Of a DNA stretch of 38,768 nucleotides, positions 7,044 through 16,492 are shown in pieces (position 1 is the first letter of the stretch; each line of letters opens with the position of its first letter). The translations under genes were made by a program, and so were the position numbers. Origin of the DNA: Deltaproteobacteria bacterium (GTDB taxonomy: Bacteria > Desulfobacterota > Syntrophia > Syntrophales > UBA8958); assembly GCA_029553375.1 (NCBI GenBank), contig JAKPCH010000015.1, positions 1 to 38,768 of the forward strand, written 5' to 3'. The notes beneath the pieces were generated by a model that ran no database searches, was not told the origin of the DNA, and was given only the letters and a program-made list of their open reading frames with translations.

Positions 7044-9071
7044 TCAACCGCCCCGGAGGGTGAAAAAGAAGACGGCCCCCTCACCCGGCCGCCCCTCCGC
7101 CCAGAGGCGACCCCCGTGACGCTCCACGATGCGTTTGACGATCGCCAGGCCGACCCCCGTGCCCTCGAACTCCCCCGGCCGGTGCAGACGTTCGAAGACC
7201 TGAAACAGCCGCCCCGCATGGGCCATGTCGAAACCGCAGCCGTTGTCCCGAACGAAATAGACCTCCCCTTCTCCTTCCCGTCGGCATCCGATCTCGATCC
7301 GGGGCCGATCCACGGTGCGACTGAACTTCACGGCGTTGCCGATGAGGTTGACCCAGACCTGCCGCAGGAGCACCGGGTCCCCTTCCGCCGGGGGGAGGGC
7401 TTCGAGGCGGAACTCGACGCGGTCCCGCCCCTCTCCGGGGACGATCTCCTCGTATGCCTGCCGGGCCAGGGCCGCCATGTCCACAGGCACCCGCCTGAGG
7501 ACCGCCCGCCCCACCCGGGAGAGAGCGAGGAGGGCGTCGATGAGCCTCCCCATCCCGGCGACGGCCTCGCCGATGACCCTGCAGATCCGTCTTCCTTCCT
7601 CGTCGAGTCGGGGGCCGTAGTCCTCCTCGAGGATCGCGCTGTAGCCGGCGATGGCCCGCAGGGGCGCCCGGAGGTCGTGGGAGACGCTGTAGGTGAAGGC
7701 CTCGAGCTCCCTGTTGGCCTCGGCGAGGGCCGCCGTCCTTTCCTCCACCCGCCTCTCCAGTTCGGCGTTCAGGCGCCTGACCTCTTCCTCGACCTCCTTG
7801 ATGCGGGTGATGTCCTGCTTCGCCCCCCAGATCCTCAGGAGCCTCCCCCCCTCGAGGTTCCCGACGAGGCTGTTGAGAAAATACCGTATCCCGCCGTCTT
7901 TGGTCAACTCCTTCGTCTCCACGCCCGAGACCCGGTAACCGCCCGTGATGAAATCCCTCAGGTACAGGACGTTCTGAGGGGCGAGGCGGGGGAAGACCTG
8001 GCCGATGCGAAAACCCGTCATCTCCCGCGGGTCTTGATAACCGTGGCTGACGGCGAAATTGAGGTTGCACTCCGCCACGACCGCCTCTTCGTAGAGGCGG
8101 TTGACCTGTTCCTCCACGGGGAGGGAGGTATCGAGGGGCCCGTGCTCGAGCTCGAAGAGACAGATGGCCTCCGAGGACTGTTTCACGAAGGCCTCGTACC
8201 TTTCCTTGCTGAGGCGCAGGGCCTCCTCCACCCGCTTGCGCTCCGTGATGTCCCTCAGGATGACGTGGATGGCCCTCCGTTCATCGAAAGGGAAGGGAAC
8301 CGCCGCCGCTTCCACCTCCACCGTCGTCCCGTCCAGGCGGCGGATCCTCTCCTCCATGACGGGCACGGCCCCCCTCCTCTCCCTCAGCGCCTCGATGCGG
8401 ACGGCGACGACCCTATGCTGGTCCTCGGGGAAGAGGTCATAGATCGACCTCCCGATGATCTCCTCGGGGCGGGAGGCCCCGAACAGTCTCAGGGCGGCGG
8501 GGTTGGCGTAAACCACCCGGTCGTCGAGATTCACAACGATGGCGTCGGGGGCGTTCTCGACGAGGCTCCGATAGCGTTCCTCCCGGCGGCGCAATTCCTC
8601 CTCCGCCGCTCTTCTCTCCTCTTCCAGGCGCTCGGTGAGGAAACGCTCATACTCCAGGGCCGGGGCCACGTCCTGGAGAAGGCAGAGGGCGCCCTCCACT
8701 TCGCCGGTCCCGGCGACGACGGGCAGGAAGCGCCCTATCTGCCGGGATGGCCGGAGGAAGGGGACGATGGTCTCGTGGAGAACGGGTGACATGACGCGGG
8801 GTTTACCCTCCGCCAGGACGGCCCGGCACGTCGCGAGGGTCCTCTGGGCAATCCCCGGCAGGACCTCTTCCAGTCTCCGGCCCAGGACCGTCGCCGCGGG
8901 CAGGCCGGTTCGATCCTCCAGCCAGCGGTTCCAGAGTCGAACCCTCCCTTCAAGATCGAGGGCGAAGATGCCGAAATCGCCCTCCTCCAGGAGGGTATCG
9001 AGATAGGCGAGCATCCTTCGTTCGCCTGCGGCGGGGCGACCATCCCTTCCCTTGGGGGGGGTCTGGGTCAT
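7044..9071 (-). CDS. soluble PAS-domain histidine kinase (phytochrome-type kinase core)
   Basis: A 675-aa protein without predicted membrane segments. Three PAS-like regions are visible: about 20-130, 195-310 (ENAPDAIVVNLDDRVVYANP) and 325-430. A coiled coil rich in Glu/Arg lies near 430-455. The HisKA motif VSHDLRAPLRAIAGYS places the phospho-acceptor at His465. The HATPase domain has N box NLIGNAVKFS, DNGCGFD and GTGVGLAIVKRI. Kinases of this subtype commonly pair with Rcp1-like regulators such as the next gene. Its ATG overlaps the TGA of the REC-CheC gene (ATGA), so the two are translationally coupled. No GAF/PHY chromophore domain is present, so light sensing is not indicated. Confidence 0.93.
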   Translation of the reverse strand: MTQTPPKGRDGRPAAGERRMLAYLDTLLEEGDFGIFALDLEGRVRLWNRWLEDRTGLPAATVLGRRLEEVLPGIAQRTLATCRAVLAEGKPRVMSPVLHETIVPFLRPSRQIGRFLPVVAGTGEVEGALCLLQDVAPALEYERFLTERLEEERRAAEEELRRREERYRSLVENAPDAIVVNLDDRVVYANPAALRLFGASRPEEIIGRSIYDLFPEDQHRVVAVRIEALRERRGAVPVMEERIRRLDGTTVEVEAAAVPFPFDERRAIHVILRDITERKRVEEALRLSKERYEAFVKQSSEAICLFELEHGPLDTSLPVEEQVNRLYEEAVVAECNLNFAVSHGYQDPREMTGFRIGQVFPRLAPQNVLYLRDFITGGYRVSGVETKELTKDGGIRYFLNSLVGNLEGGRLLRIWGAKQDITRIKEVEEEVRRLNAELERRVEERTAALAEANRELEAFTYSVSHDLRAPLRAIAGYSAILEEDYGPRLDEEGRRICRVIGEAVAGMGRLIDALLALSRVGRAVLRRVPVDMAALARQAYEEIVPGEGRDRVEFRLEALPPAEGDPVLLRQVWVNLIGNAVKFSRTVDRPRIEIGCRREGEGEVYFVRDNGCGFDMAHAGRLFQVFERLHRPGEFEGTGVGLAIVKRIVERHGGRLWAEGRPGEGAVFFFTLRGG

Positions 9072-10030
9072 TTCTTCAGTCCGTCCAGGAGGATCTCCAC
9101 GTCCTCGCCCGGCATGAGGAGGATAAGGTGGCTCACCAGCTCCGCCTCGCCGACGGAGAGGCGGCTCACGAGGACGAAGGCCCCCGCCCCGTCGGGCACC
9201 GTCTCCGTCAATACCTTCGCCTCCTCATCACCCGTCTCGGCGAGGGCGAGGACGGGCAGGCCGATCCGGAGGCGCGTCCCGAGGCGATCGGCGAGGATGG
9301 CGATGGCGGCGTTGAGGACGATGTTGCCCATCTCCGTGAGGACGGACTGCTCCTCCGAGGAGAGGCGCCCCGAACCCTTGTGGATGTCCGCCAGGGTGGC
9401 GAGGAGAAAGGACGCCTGCCCTTCGGAGAAGACCATGGCCGCCACCCCGTTGACGAGACCGGCGAAGCGTTGGCGGATCGCCACCCCCACCTCTGGTATC
9501 TCCGCGCGGAAGAATTCCCCCAGTTCCTCGGCCCTCATCATCCGGACCTCCGGGACCATGAGGCGGACCCGGCGGCGGAGGAGGACGCCCAGGGCCTCGG
9601 CCGCCTGGCCCATGGCGATGTTCATGATCTCGCAGAAGGCGTCCAGCTCCTCGGGGGTCAGGTCCCTAAAACCCGTCTCCTGAAGCGCCTTCTCCACCGC
9701 CGCCAGGAGGACCTCGTCCGGCGCCGTCTTGGAGACGAAGGCCTTCACTCCCAGGGCCAAGACCTCCTCCCGCGTCTCCCGCTGGACGTCGGCGGAGGAG
9801 ACGACCACGGGCAGGTGAGGGCGGAGCCCCCGCAGACGCTCGATCAATTCCACACCTCCCATCCCGGGCATGAGGAGATCCACCGTGACGAGATCCACCC
9901 TTTCCCCCTGGAGCGCCCTCAAGGCATCTTCCCCGTCCCTCGCCTCTTTGACCTCATAGCCCGCCCCCGTCAGGACCGAGACGATCCTCCGGCGGGCGTA
10001 GGCGGAATCGTCCACCACCAGAATCTTCAT
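9068..10030 (-). CDS. receiver domain fused to CheC-type phosphatase domain
   Basis: A 320-aa protein. Residues 1-118 are a CheY-like receiver (VVDDSA, phospho-acceptor Asp51 in VDLLMPGMGG, Lys101). Residues 125-315 match the CheC/CheX/FliY fold. Both halves carry the CheC active-site pattern E-x2-N-x22-P: Glu134/Asn137/Pro160 and Glu233/Asn236/Pro259. In known CheC proteins this pattern dephosphorylates CheY-P. The fusion could therefore act on receivers encoded alongside it, or its own receiver could control the phosphatase; both are inference. A GAGGTGAGG Shine-Dalgarno precedes the ATG. It begins 4 nt after the GGDEF chimera and ends in an ATGA overlap with the PAS kinase. No flagellar or che genes are nearby. 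Confidence 0.9.
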   Translation of the reverse strand: MKILVVDDSAYARRRIVSVLTGAGYEVKEARDGEDALRALQGERVDLVTVDLLMPGMGGVELIERLRGLRPHLPVVVSSADVQRETREEVLALGVKAFVSKTAPDEVLLAAVEKALQETGFRDLTPEELDAFCEIMNIAMGQAAEALGVLLRRRVRLMVPEVRMMRAEELGEFFRAEIPEVGVAIRQRFAGLVNGVAAMVFSEGQASFLLATLADIHKGSGRLSSEEQSVLTEMGNIVLNAAIAILADRLGTRLRIGLPVLALAETGDEEAKVLTETVPDGAGAFVLVSRLSVGEAELVSHLILLMPGEDVEILLDGLKK

Positions 10031-10034
10031 GGCC

Positions 10035-10844
10035 TCACCTCACCGATCCCTGCCGCCCGCCGTAACCCCTGACGATCGCGGCGGCGTCTCTGACCTTTTT
10101 TCCCTTCTCGAAATACATGAGCTGGTCCGCCCGCCGTAGGAGGGACTCGAGATCCTCGCCCCCCCTTGGGTCAACGAATACCGTACCTATACTGAGGCTC
10201 AGGACGTAGGGCCGCCCGCCGTCTTCGTTGAACCGCGCCACGGCCTCGCGGAGGTGGTCCGCGATGACGGCCCCCGCCTCGGGACCCGTGTCGAGGGCCA
10301 GGACGGCGAACTCGTCACCACCCATACGCCCCTGGATGTCGGAGTCCCGAAACGCCCCCCTGATGATGTCGGCGGCGTCCCTGATGGCCCTGTCCCCTTC
10401 TTCGTGGCCCAGGATGTCGTTGACCCACTTGAGGCCGTCCAGATCCACGAAAACCGCCGTGTGACCCCGGCCGGTCCGCCCCGCCGCCTTGAGCTGCTGC
10501 CCTGCCAGGGTGAGAAACCCGCGGCGGTTGTAGAGACCCGTCAGCTCGTCCGTGAGGGACACGGAGACGAGGCGGTCCTCGGCCTGGCGGCGGAAGACGG
10601 CCAGGGCGTAGAGGTCCGCCAGGCGCGTGACGAGCTTCAGATCCTCCTCCGTGTAACCCTTTTCCTTGTTCGCCACGGCCACCTGGCCCATGAGGCGCCC
10701 CTCGAAGAGGGCCGGGGCGGAGAGGAAATTCGCGATCGGGGGGTGTCCCTCCGGGATGCCTCCCGCCCGGGCGTCGAGGAGGGCCTTCATCCCCGCCCGG
10801 AAGAGGGCATGATCGTCGGCGAGAAGGACCCTAAGAGGTTTCAA
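10035..10844 (-). CDS. chimeric REC-remnant / GAF-remnant / GGDEF diguanylate cyclase
   Basis: A 269-aa protein started by TTG (complement of 10842-10844) with GGGGGAGAGG upstream; it overlaps the kinase gene by 14 nt. Residues 1-25 (LRVLLADDHALFRAGMKALL) are the beginning of a NarL/LuxR-type receiver. The rest of that receiver, including its phospho-Asp, is missing. Residues 26-90 are only the C-terminal half of a GAF domain. Residues 96-255 are a GGDEF domain with an intact GGDEF at 175-179 and an inhibitory-site RxxD (Arg166-Asp169) five residues before it, so c-di-GMP synthesis with product inhibition is plausible. The simplest reading is an in-frame deletion that joined a response-regulator gene to a downstream GAF-GGDEF gene. 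Confidence 0.85.
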   Translation of the reverse strand: MKPLRVLLADDHALFRAGMKALLDARAGGIPEGHPPIANFLSAPALFEGRLMGQVAVANKEKGYTEEDLKLVTRLADLYALAVFRRQAEDRLVSVSLTDELTGLYNRRGFLTLAGQQLKAAGRTGRGHTAVFVDLDGLKWVNDILGHEEGDRAIRDAADIIRGAFRDSDIQGRMGGDEFAVLALDTGPEAGAVIADHLREAVARFNEDGGRPYVLSLSIGTVFVDPRGGEDLESLLRRADQLMYFEKGKKVRDAAAIVRGYGGRQGSVR

Positions 10845-11985
10845 GGTCCTCTCCCCCTTCCCCCACGGCCTTTTCTTGGAAGTCGAAGACGATCTCCAGG
10901 CGACACCCCTTGCCGGCGGCGGCCTCGACGTGAAAGGCGCCGCCCGCGCTGACGATCCTCTCCTGCATCCCCAAAAGCCCCAGGTGCCCCCCCCTGACGG
11001 CCTTCGTCCGGGCGTCCAAGAGGTCGAAACCGACCCCGTCGTCCTCCACGGTAAGGACGAGGCGCCGGGGGGCCTGGTTCAGGGACACCTCGCATCGGCG
11101 GGCCCCTGAGTGTTTGATAACGTTCGTTAGGGCCTCCTGAACCACGCGGAAGCAGGCCGTCTCCACGTCGGGGGGCAGGCGCTTGCCCGTCGTGACGGCG
11201 GAAAAACGGGTCTCGATACCGGCGTCGCGCATCCGGTAGTCCACGAACCAGCGGAGGGCCGCCGCCAGGCCCAGGTCGTCGAGTATGGACGGTCTCAGGT
11301 CGTGGGAGATGCGGCGGATCTGGTCCAGGACCTGACCGAGGGCGGCGATGGTACGGTCGAGGAGGACCTGCTGCGTCTCGAGATCGGGGCAGCGGCTCAA
11401 TTGCTGGAGGTTCACCTTGATGATGGAGAGGGTTTGGCCGACCTGATCGTGGAGCTCCCGGGCGATCTTCCTCCGCTCCGCCTCTTGGATCTCCATCAGT
11501 TGGAGGGAGAGGGCCCTCATCCCCTCCTCGCCATCCCCCTCCCGTTCCGAGACCCCCTCCCCCGGCAGGGCCGTCATGTCCCGGGCGTCGCAGACCACGG
11601 CCTCCACCTCCCCCGACGGGGAGACGACGGGGGTGAGGATATACTCATAACGGCGCACCCCTTCCAGGGTGGGGAAATCCGTATAGGCCGTCAGGGGTCG
11701 GCGGGTCTCCATGACCCGCCGGAGGTTGTCCGCGAAGGTCTCCATGATGTCCCGGGGGAATCCCAGTTCCCGCCAGTGCCGCCCCATCATGTCGGCGGGC
11801 TTCAAGCCCAAGGCCGCCGCGCCGGCGGCGTTGGCGAAGAGGTAGCGGCCGGAGGGGTCGAACATGTAGATGTGGTCCGCCGAGGTCATCAGGACCTTCC
11901 CCAACAGACTCGCCTCCGCCGCCAGGGTCCCGTTGACCATCAGACGGCCCCGCTTCACCCTTTCGTCAGACGATCCGTCTTCCAT
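10831..11985 (-). CDS. soluble PAS / HisKA_3 histidine kinase (NarX/DegS type)
   Basis: A 384-aa protein with no membrane segment. A PAS domain (about 28-140) precedes a HisKA_3 dimerisation domain with RKIARELHDQVGQTL, phospho-acceptor His179. The HATPase domain has VVQEALTNVIKHS, DDGVGFD and GLLGMQER. Kinases of this class normally pair with a NarL/LuxR-family regulator in the next gene. Here the next gene keeps only the first 25 residues of such a regulator, so the cognate partner seems lost. GAGGGG lies 9 nt before the ATG and a reasonable promoter lies just upstream (12007-12034). It is the first gene of the leftward signalling operon. Confidence 0.92.
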   Translation of the reverse strand: MEDGSSDERVKRGRLMVNGTLAAEASLLGKVLMTSADHIYMFDPSGRYLFANAAGAAALGLKPADMMGRHWRELGFPRDIMETFADNLRRVMETRRPLTAYTDFPTLEGVRRYEYILTPVVSPSGEVEAVVCDARDMTALPGEGVSEREGDGEEGMRALSLQLMEIQEAERRKIARELHDQVGQTLSIIKVNLQQLSRCPDLETQQVLLDRTIAALGQVLDQIRRISHDLRPSILDDLGLAAALRWFVDYRMRDAGIETRFSAVTTGKRLPPDVETACFRVVQEALTNVIKHSGARRCEVSLNQAPRRLVLTVEDDGVGFDLLDARTKAVRGGHLGLLGMQERIVSAGGAFHVEAAAGKGCRLEIVFDFQEKAVGEGGEDLETS

Positions 11986-13678: not shown

Positions 13679-14284
13679 TTATTGGTTTTCCGGACCCTCC
13701 TGGGACGTCCGGAAACGGGAGAGGACCCGTCCGAGTTCCTCGATCTCTCCCCTCAGCCTTGCCAGGTCCGCGGCGGACTCTTCCCCCATTCCCCCCCGGC
13801 CGGCGAGGGCGGCGGCGTCCCTTTCTATCCGCCCGTGGAGGTCCTTGACGGCCGAGATCATCCGGGAAAGGTCGTTGACCATGGCGTTGATCCGTTCGCT
13901 CTCCTTCCTCAGGTAGTCGCCCTGGCGGAGGTGGACGGTCCTCGTGAAGTCCCCCTCCCCCACCCGGCGGAAGGTGTGGCTGAAGTTGATGAGGGGGCCG
14001 CAGATGCGGTGGGTGATGACGACGAGATGGAGGAGGTACAGGACGATGATGACGCCGGCGGCGGGGACGACCCGCTTCGCCGTGAAGATGAAGAGGAGGG
14101 CCGCATGGCGTCTCACCTCCACGCTCTGGGACCAGTCCATTTCCCGCACCACGGGAATCAGCATGATGACCACCACCACGGTCACCACGGCGACCATGTA
14201 GATCAGACCGTAGACGATCACCCTCACCTGGAGATCCCGGTCGATGAGGTAATTCAAGAGGCTCCTTTTGTGGCCTTGACTCAT
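13679..14284 (-). CDS. two-TM HAMP-domain protein without output domain
   Basis: The 201-aa protein starts MSQGHKRSLLNYL at an ATG overlapping the pilin gene stop (ATGA). TM1 is near 21-47. A short Trp-containing loop with charged residues follows, then a long hydrophobic segment near 61-91, and a HAMP-like region (GPLINFSHTFRRVGEGDF) at about 96-140. The C-terminal 60 residues are helical and coiled-coil-like, with no kinase, cyclase or methyl-accepting signature. Similar stand-alone HAMP proteins are often labelled chemotaxis-receptor-like. The strict coupling with the pilin-like gene suggests joint function, perhaps membrane anchoring or sensing of the pilin; this is inference. A longer open frame extends upstream only because of the frameshifted end of ade. 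Confidence 0.85.
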   Translation of the reverse strand: MSQGHKRSLLNYLIDRDLQVRVIVYGLIYMVAVVTVVVVIMLIPVVREMDWSQSVEVRRHAALLFIFTAKRVVPAAGVIIVLYLLHLVVITHRICGPLINFSHTFRRVGEGDFTRTVHLRQGDYLRKESERINAMVNDLSRMISAVKDLHGRIERDAAALAGRGGMGEESAADLARLRGEIEELGRVLSRFRTSQEGPENQ

Positions 14285-14718
14285 GATCCCTTCTCCCTCT
14301 TCGTCATCTCGCCCGTCGAGAAATCGTAGACAAAAACCTTGCTCGCCGAAGGGTGCGTCGCCTCCGCCCGGAAGGGTGGAGGCCCGGCAGGCGAGGCGCC
14401 GTCCCCCGAGACGATGGTGATCCTCACCCCGGCAGAGGGGGCGTAGCGGAGGTCCTCCCTCCTGAGGGTCCCCTTCTCCCCTTCCCCGCCTTCCATGTAG
14501 TCCCCCTCCGTACCCAGGTATCTCCCCCTCTCCGCCCGGTAGATCTCCTCGGCCTTGGCGAAAGACACGAGATCCTGGTGGACCGTGATGTCGTAGGCCT
14601 TGGTCAGATAATAGCGCATGCCGATAAAACCGACGGCGGCCAGGGCGGCGAGGATGATCACCACGAATAAGACTTCGATGAGGGTAAAGGCCCTCCGGTT
14701 TCGTCCCCTCCCTTTCAT
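14281..14718 (-). CDS. type IV pilin-like prepilin (orphan)
   Basis: A 145-aa class III signal-peptide protein. The basic leader MKGRGRNRRA is followed by FTLIEVLFVVIILAALAAVG, the N-methylation/hydrophobic helix with Glu at mature position 5. Residue -1 is Ala rather than the usual Gly; prepilin peptidases can tolerate Ala. The globular part (VHQDLVSFAKAEEIYRAERG...) resembles type II/IV pseudopilins and has no Cys pair. It would be processed by PilD and inserted in the inner membrane. No pil or gsp assembly genes are nearby. Its TGA overlaps the ATG of the HAMP gene, and ade ends just upstream. It may be a minor pilin, a pseudopilin or a sensory adaptor. Confidence 0.88.
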   Translation of the reverse strand: MKGRGRNRRAFTLIEVLFVVIILAALAAVGFIGMRYYLTKAYDITVHQDLVSFAKAEEIYRAERGRYLGTEGDYMEGGEGEKGTLRREDLRYAPSAGVRITIVSGDGASPAGPPPFRAEATHPSASKVFVYDFSTGEMTKREKGS

Positions 14719-14738
14719 GGAATGATCCCCATACCTTT

Positions 14739-16492
14739 TTATCCTTCAGGCCCTCGGGACCGTCCCGGCCCCCCCCCCCTTCCTCGAAAAGGGAAACGAA
14801 GGCGAACTTCCCCACGTCCACCAGACCGCGATCCGTGATCTTCAACTCCGGGACGACGGGGAGGGCCAGGAAGGAGAGGCACATGAAGGGCTCGTCGAGG
14901 GGGCAACCCAAACCGGCGGCGGCCCCGCGGAGTTCCTCCCAGCCCGCCGCCACCTCCTCCAGGGGCAGGTCCGACATGAGGCCGCCGACGGGGAGGGGGA
15001 GGCGGGCCGTCACGTGTCCCGGGAGGGCGACGACCAGCCCTCCCTTCATGGCCTCCACCTCCTTGGCGGCGGTGAGCATGCTCTCGTCGTCGGCGCCGAC
15101 GCAGACGATATTGTGCGAATCGTGGGCGACGGAAGAGGCCAGGGCCCCCCGCCGGAGGCCGAAGCCCCTGACGAAACCCACGGCTATGTTCCCCGTCCCG
15201 CGGTGCCTCTCGATGACGGCGATCTTGAGGACGTCCCGCCCGGTGTCGGAGGCGACGAGACCGTCCCTGAGGCGGGGTTCGAGAAAGACCGCCTTCGTCA
15301 GTATCTGGCCCGGCACCAGTTCCATGACCCGGACCCGCCCGGGCCGGGCAGGGACGGCAAAGGCGCCGACACCGTAGGGTCTGACGTTCATCACAGACAT
15401 ACCTGGGGGTGGAGGGGCGGGATCGGGCCTAAAGAGGGCCTCCCCTTCCCGGGCCACCTCCCTTCCCCCCTTGTAGACCGCCACGACCCGCAAGGGATCG
15501 AGGGAGGACAAAACGACCAGGTCCGCCCGGCATCCCGGGGCGACGGCACCCCGGTCCGTCAGACCGAAGTGCCTCGCCGTGTTGACGGTCACCATGGCGA
15601 TGGCGCTCACGGGGTCGAGACCGGCGCCGATCGCCCGTCTCAAGAGGGCGTCGAGGTGGCCGTTGCGGAGGATCTCATGGGGGTGGAGGTCGTCGGTGAC
15701 GAAACTGCAGCGGCTGAGTGTGGCGGGGGTGACGAGGGGGAGGAGTTCGTCGAGGTTCTTGGCCTGGGTCCCCTCCCGGATGAAGATGTGCATCCCCAGG
15801 CGGAGCTTCTCGCGGGCCTCTTCGAGACGGGTGCACTCGTGATCGGAACCGATCCCCGCCGCGATGTAGGCGTTGAGGTCCCGTCCTGACAGGAGGGGGG
15901 CGTGGCCGTCCCTCGGCCGCCGGGAGAAGGCCATGATCTTCTCGAGGACGGCCTCGACGGCATAGACGACGCCGGGGAAGTTCATCATCTCTCCCAAACC
16001 CAGGACCCTCTCCTCGCCGGCGAAGGAGGAGAGGTCGGCGGCCGTCATGGCCGCCCCGGCCGTTTCGAGGTCCGTGGCGGGGACGCAGGAGGGGAGCATG
16101 AAGAAGAAATCCACGCCGAGGCCCTCCGTCGCGGCGATGAGGTAACGGATCCCTTCCCTTCCCAGGACGTTGGCCAACTCGTGGGGATCCGCCACCACGG
16201 CCGTCGTCCCGTGGGGCGAAACGGCCCGGGCGAGCTGGGGCGGCGTCAGGAGGGAACTCTCGATGTGGAAGTGGCCGTCGATGAAACCGGGAGCCAAGTA
16301 CAGACCTTCCAGGTCTTTGACGACGGGCCCGTCGTATCGCCCCACACCGGCGATGAGACCGTCGCAGACGGCCACGTCGGCCTCCAGGATCTCCCCCGAC
16401 AGGACGTTAACCACCCGGGCGTTTTTCAGGACGAGATCGGCGGGGGCGACCCCCCTGGCGACACCGATGAGACGTTTCAGCCCCGCCGTCAT
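14739..16492 (-). CDS. ade: adenine deaminase, 3' end disturbed by an 11-G tract
   Basis: The protein is about 575-585 aa and matches the AdeC-type adenine deaminase (adenine to hypoxanthine plus ammonia; binuclear metal amidohydrolase). The metal motif GFIDGHFHIESS (His74, His76), TTAVVADPHELANV and the C-terminal ASSVAHDSHNIVCVG with PLPVGGLMSD are present. The normal end KITDRGLVDVGKFAFVSLF is reached near 14795. Then an 11-nt G run (14769-14779 as C on the plus strand) occurs. As read, the frame runs on out of register through the pilin gene. One more G would stop at TAA (14739-14741) and one fewer at TGA (14746-14748). A length error or slippage is likely. The ATG lies 6 nt after the K+ channel gene. 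Confidence 0.88.
14769..14779. repeat. 11-nt homopolymer (poly-C on plus, poly-G in ade mRNA)
   Basis: Eleven consecutive C on the plus strand lie within the last codons of ade. Of the tract lengths 10, 11 and 12, only 11 leaves ade without a nearby stop. Tracts of this length are prone to sequencing error and polymerase slippage. Confidence 0.9.

Follow-up and report, generated by a model that had tools for sequence, protein, structure and literature searches.

The window, the whole 38,768-nucleotide stretch of DNA that we analyzed, carries on its minus strand a 269-codon open reading frame placed between a histidine kinase gene and the gene for a REC-CheX/CheC protein (Table 1). The preliminary description of this DNA, made from its letters alone, had read the open reading frame as an in-frame chimera that begins as a NarL-type receiver and continues as half of a GAF domain and a complete GGDEF domain, and profile and Pfam matches bore out each of these parts. 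The chimera is present in the sequence itself. Its 269 codons contain no stops and no frameshifts, and GC3 is 0.92 in the GAF part and 0.84 in the GGDEF part, with similar values in the neighboring genes. The TTG start, which has GGGGGAGAGG directly 5' of it, overlaps the 3' end of the upstream kinase gene by 14 nt, so that the translational coupling to the kinase proposed earlier is indeed kept. The ATG of the REC-CheX gene lies 4 nt past the stop, and the tight operon spacing is kept on both flanks of the chimera.

Table 1. Features of the chimeric gene and its neighbors (positions in the window)
Feature	Position	Strand	Basis
PAS histidine kinase, 3' flank	7044..9071	-	Pfam; same order in same-family genome G008
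REC-CheX/CheC protein, following gene in the operon	9068..10030	-	Pfam; 59% identical to G008 ortholog
Chimeric open reading frame, 269 aa	10035..10844	-	TTG start; as in the preliminary description
Complete GGDEF domain, residues 97-250	10095..10556	-	Pfam, alignment, AlphaFold
GGDEF catalytic motif, residues 175-179	10308..10322	-	Sequence, alignment
RxxD inhibitory site, R166-D169	10338..10349	-	Sequence; both residues nearly invariant in relatives
C-terminal half of GHPP-type GAF (last beta hairpin and next helix)	10593..10775	-	GAF_2 Pfam match
Junction, codons 24-26, GAC GCC CGG (DAR)	10767..10775	-	Both parental profiles match here
NarL-type receiver N terminus (beta1-alpha1), residues 1-23	10776..10844	-	Receiver profile match
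PAS-HisKA_3-HATPase_c histidine kinase, NarX/UhpB-like, full length	10831..11985	-	Pfam PAS_4, HisKA_3, HATPase_c

Domain pieces of the chimeric protein

A profile made from 22 NarL-type receivers located 3' of relatives of the upstream kinase matched residues 4-26 of the chimera with a score of 17.3 bits, compared to a best score of 10.2 bits for 20,000 shuffles of the protein. No Response_reg match was given by Pfam for the chimeric protein because 23 to 25 residues are too few, and the phosphoacceptor Asp and the remainder of the REC-HTH protein are missing. A second profile, made from 29 intact GAFs, matched residues 24-94 with 94.6 bits, and Pfam GAF_2 matched residues 25-83 (E = 2.9e-10) with only positions 76-135 of its 136-position model. 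Residues 24-94 are therefore the second half of a GAF domain, of which the first half, with the ligand pocket, is missing; intact relatives, including GAF-GGDEF proteins, carry approximately 110 GAF residues more than the chimera does. The GAF piece is at most 58% identical to intact GAFs of other proteins, chiefly kinases. The claim that neither the receiver nor the GAF is complete thus held for both domains.

The NarL profile match ends at residue 26 and the GAF profile match starts at residue 24, which places the meeting point of the parents at codons 24-26, in agreement with the switch near residue 26 that had been described. Near this junction, the consensus in relatives is LL(E/D)A for the NarL-type receivers and DPR(S/A)xG for the GAFs, and the two resemble each other. 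The preliminary description had also drawn attention to the 9-mer CCCGCCCGG as a possible remnant of a short-homology deletion. It is found at both of the places named (10762-10770 and 10792-10800), where its copies encode Arg-Ala-Gly as residues 16-18 and 26-28. We rejected it as the scar of a deletion, as both copies are retained and residues 19-26, which recombination between them would have deleted, are present. The repeat is also at chance level: CCCGCCCGG occurs 9 times on the plus strand of the window, and some direct 9-mer repeat is found in 9.5% of its 110-bp stretches.

The GGDEF domain is matched by Pfam PF00990 at residues 97-248 (model positions 2-156 of 161, E = 5.5e-34), and the match of the protein to TIGR00254 of NCBIfam is above the cut-off. 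Residues 99-250 keep every invariant position of a 42-sequence alignment, and the R166-D169 pair lies five residues ahead of the GGDEF motif, which is the arrangement of an I-site. The complete domain, the motif, and the conserved residues by which diguanylate cyclases are recognized are thus all in place. The fold prediction that had been proposed for the N-terminal region was run with AlphaFold, which gave pLDDT values of about 93-97 for the GGDEF domain and 83-91 for the GAF hairpin and helix, and only 53-65 for residues 1-40. In this model a single continuous helix, residues 66-124, runs into the GGDEF domain. The model is only suggestive of dimerization via this helix. Matches in a structure search with the model were dominated by the GGDEF domain and held little information on residues 1-65.

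The chimera falls outside the NarL regulators, the GAF sensors, and the phosphorylatable REC-GGDEF regulators: tests for the defining features of the three classes were negative. The complete receiver with phosphoacceptor Asp and the GerE helix-turn-helix of NarL/FixJ proteins were absent, contig C70 gave no GerE match, and the chimera does not hold the complete GAF fold with ligand pocket.

Gene order and parental genes in relatives

The upstream kinase, which has partial NCBIfam matches to MctS, UhpB, NarQ, and NarX, now has no intact partner alongside. We compared 47 kinase loci of the order, among which L048 and L193 are the same locus counted twice. The kinase is directly followed by a NarL-type receiver start at 37 of them, in most cases 5-30 nt from where the kinase frame ends; of the others, two are cut off too early to judge. 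The pairing is seen in relatives more distant than genus level, and two paralogous kinases in the source genome both still have their NarL partner. From the partners at these 37 loci, both paralogues included, the present kinase very probably lost an adjacent NarL-type partner of its own. In genome G021, the closest full-length relative of the kinase (37% identity) is not followed by a NarL regulator, and a 62% match in genome G007 is limited to the PAS domain, so that the relatives searched offered no true orthologous locus.

The preliminary description had proposed looking for separate parental genes at this locus in relatives. The NarL regulator was found after the kinase, as just described, but the other parent was not: a GAF-GGDEF gene immediately upstream of REC-CheX was found in no relative. 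Both flanks of the chimera are sound. Genome G008, from the same family, keeps the order of the window (REC-CheX, 59%; PAS kinase, 51%; receiver, 57%; next gene, 63%), except that an extra substrate-binding-protein gene and a second kinase gene separate the PAS kinase from the receiver (L256 2195-8671 versus window 7044-9071). At the end of contig 100 of this genome (L256 95-2201), the fused REC-CheX gene is immediately preceded by separate receiver and CheX genes. These two are related to the REC-CheX protein of the window, so that unfused and fused versions are adjacent.

Within the source genome, searches for the displaced remainder of the NarL regulator (by GerE) and for the first half of the GAF elsewhere returned other genes only, and none of its five clear GerE loci is a partner at the chimera locus. 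The partial GAFs on contigs C51 and C61 were also considered as the displaced half and were rejected, because they are partial only through the overlap of the two contig ends. These two contigs share their first 141 nt exactly, inside a GAF gene, which makes them neighbors in the genome and k = 141 a probable setting of the assembly.

A conserved family of the same architecture in related genomes, which the preliminary description had named as a finding that would refute its reading, was looked for and not found. Pattern scanning of one genome per species, with EGHPPIAN and NKEKGYTE among the patterns, recovered GGDEF relatives that all start at residue 37 or later and none reaching residues 1-26. 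No other chimera was found in whole-protein searches of 41 relatives or in GAF-piece searches of 395 genomes of the phylum. The sole exception to these starting points was an unrelated GAF-GGDEF protein of the source genome, a 32% match from residue 12. A literature search on truncated receivers with GAF-GGDEF returned nothing. Since no relative with its architecture was found, the chimera appears to be a singleton that arose by illegitimate deletion.

Probable origin and predicted activity of the fusion

The explanation that we consider probable is that an illegitimate deletion, or an equivalent rearrangement, joined the start of a NarL-type regulator in frame to the second GAF half of a GAF-GGDEF gene. 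The first parent would have been the response regulator gene formerly 3' of the PAS-HisKA_3 kinase, with approximately its first 24 codons kept, and the second would have been kept from the second half of its GAF onward. We infer that the deletion, most likely a one-off event, was then fixed. With the receiver gene's start and its kinase overlap kept, the chimera would be translated together with the kinase, and with neither a phosphoacceptor Asp nor the ligand-binding half of the GAF, neither phosphotransfer nor the former GAF ligand would switch it any longer. The GAF hairpin, the long helix, and the GGDEF domain would most likely dimerize through the helix. The product would then most likely make c-di-GMP whenever expressed, limited by its expression level and by product inhibition at the I-site. 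The protein is likely a phosphorylation-independent diguanylate cyclase whose translation is coupled to that of the kinase and whose output is held back by product inhibition. It is probably free of its former controls, and the constitutive activity raised in the preliminary description is plausible. A GCN4-WspR GGDEF fusion is reportedly active. The structure of this fusion has been solved (3i5c) and shows that a coiled coil can replace the natural N terminus of a cyclase.

The same fusion could instead be a dead remnant, a young pseudogene that remains open since the genome is G+C-rich and whose half-GAF protein misfolds or is degraded. Half-GAF proteins may misfold, the receiver fragment and the following loop have pLDDT values of only 53-65, and remnants of this kind occur in the family, such as the G007 PAS that is followed, in a different frame, by the tail of a second kinase. 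We nevertheless regard a remnant as unlikely, given 269 codons without a stop or frameshift, a codon bias as in the neighbors, intact catalytic and inhibitory residues, and tight operon spacing on both sides. Still lower is the probability that the assembler joined two loci, or dropped a stretch, at the junction. This is a 96-contig draft, the sole arguable homology at the junction is very short, and a chimeric read or population variant is possible. However, the exact 141-nt overlap of two contig ends is the mark of a de Bruijn assembly run at k = 141. An assembler of this kind joins loci only where they have much more sequence in common than the few bases at codons 24-26, and a misassembly of this type at the junction is unlikely. 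The join is moreover in frame and within a contig, both flanks belong to plausible two-component operons, and neither the rest of the NarL regulator nor the other GAF half turned up on any contig searched.

An old internal deletion inside a single REC-GAF-GGDEF response regulator would require only one gene, and receiver-GGDEF proteins are common among the cyclase-domain relatives. Yet the receiver start is NarL-type and lies exactly where NarL-type regulators begin after kinases of this family, and a REC-GAF-GGDEF relative with this GAF was not recovered; we hold this origin to be very improbable. Least credible to us is a new small regulatory domain, composed of beta1-alpha1 and the half-GAF hairpin and helix, that would dock on the kinase or another protein, with the kinase regulating the cyclase by contact instead of phosphotransfer.

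For the fusion by deletion that we favor, the closest known counterparts are cyclase fusions made by deletion, and the chimera, an in-frame join of two identifiable parents whose pieces are separate in relatives, looks like a natural member of this group. To our knowledge, such fusions are known from laboratory evolution and are seldom met in wild genomes. In Pseudomonas fluorescens, three cyclase genes became active when deletions placed them in frame with genes upstream, with promoter capture as part of the cause (Lind et al. 2015, PMC4395868), and a review (PMC10333796) cites Farr et al. (2017) for a PAS-GGDEF protein that changed location through a fusion made by deletion. As in the P. fluorescens wrinkly spreader fusions, the start of an upstream gene is in frame with a cyclase missing N-terminal sequence, and the cyclase would gain new expression and lose old control. 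In contrast to those fusions, the chimera lies in an environmental-type draft genome, with its event and effect predicted from sequence; its upstream partner is the start of a response regulator, and its own sensor is cut mid-domain.

The chimera has a receiver-type N terminus, a C-terminal GGDEF domain, and an adjoining histidine kinase, as do PleD/WspR-type REC-GGDEF proteins, but its receiver consists only of beta1-alpha1, cannot be phosphorylated for want of the phosphoacceptor, and is followed by half a GAF. Like GAF-GGDEF sensor cyclases, it has a GAF helix that continues straight into the GGDEF domain, but it lacks the first half of the GAF and its ligand pocket. The overlap of a NarL-type gene start with a HisKA_3 kinase is shared with NarX/NarL-type pairs, whereas the NarL identity of the chimera ends after approximately 24 residues, with no receiver core and no GerE helix-turn-helix. 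If confirmed by reads, the chimera would be the natural-genome counterpart of the laboratory-evolution cyclase fusions that arise by deletion. Such fusions could then persist in nature, and a two-component system would have been rewired into a phosphorylation-independent source of c-di-GMP, with its kinase left without an adjacent partner.

Two other sequence irregularities were observed. At L165 7513-8070 (contig 29 of G007, from the same family), a PAS domain approximately 60-62% identical to that of the window kinase is fused, in a different frame, to the ~60 C-terminal residues of a HisKA kinase, a tail that resembles two intact kinases nearby; this locus is the remnant of a deletion in which the same kinase family took part. 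In the window, the adenine deaminase gene at 13679-16492 (minus strand) has no stop after its last domain and reads on for 374 further codons, out of frame through the prepilin gene at 14281-14718. A run of 11 G (14769-14780) near the end of the deaminase is the likely cause, as both other frames stop soon after it, and this run likely reflects a homopolymer error or slippage-type variation.
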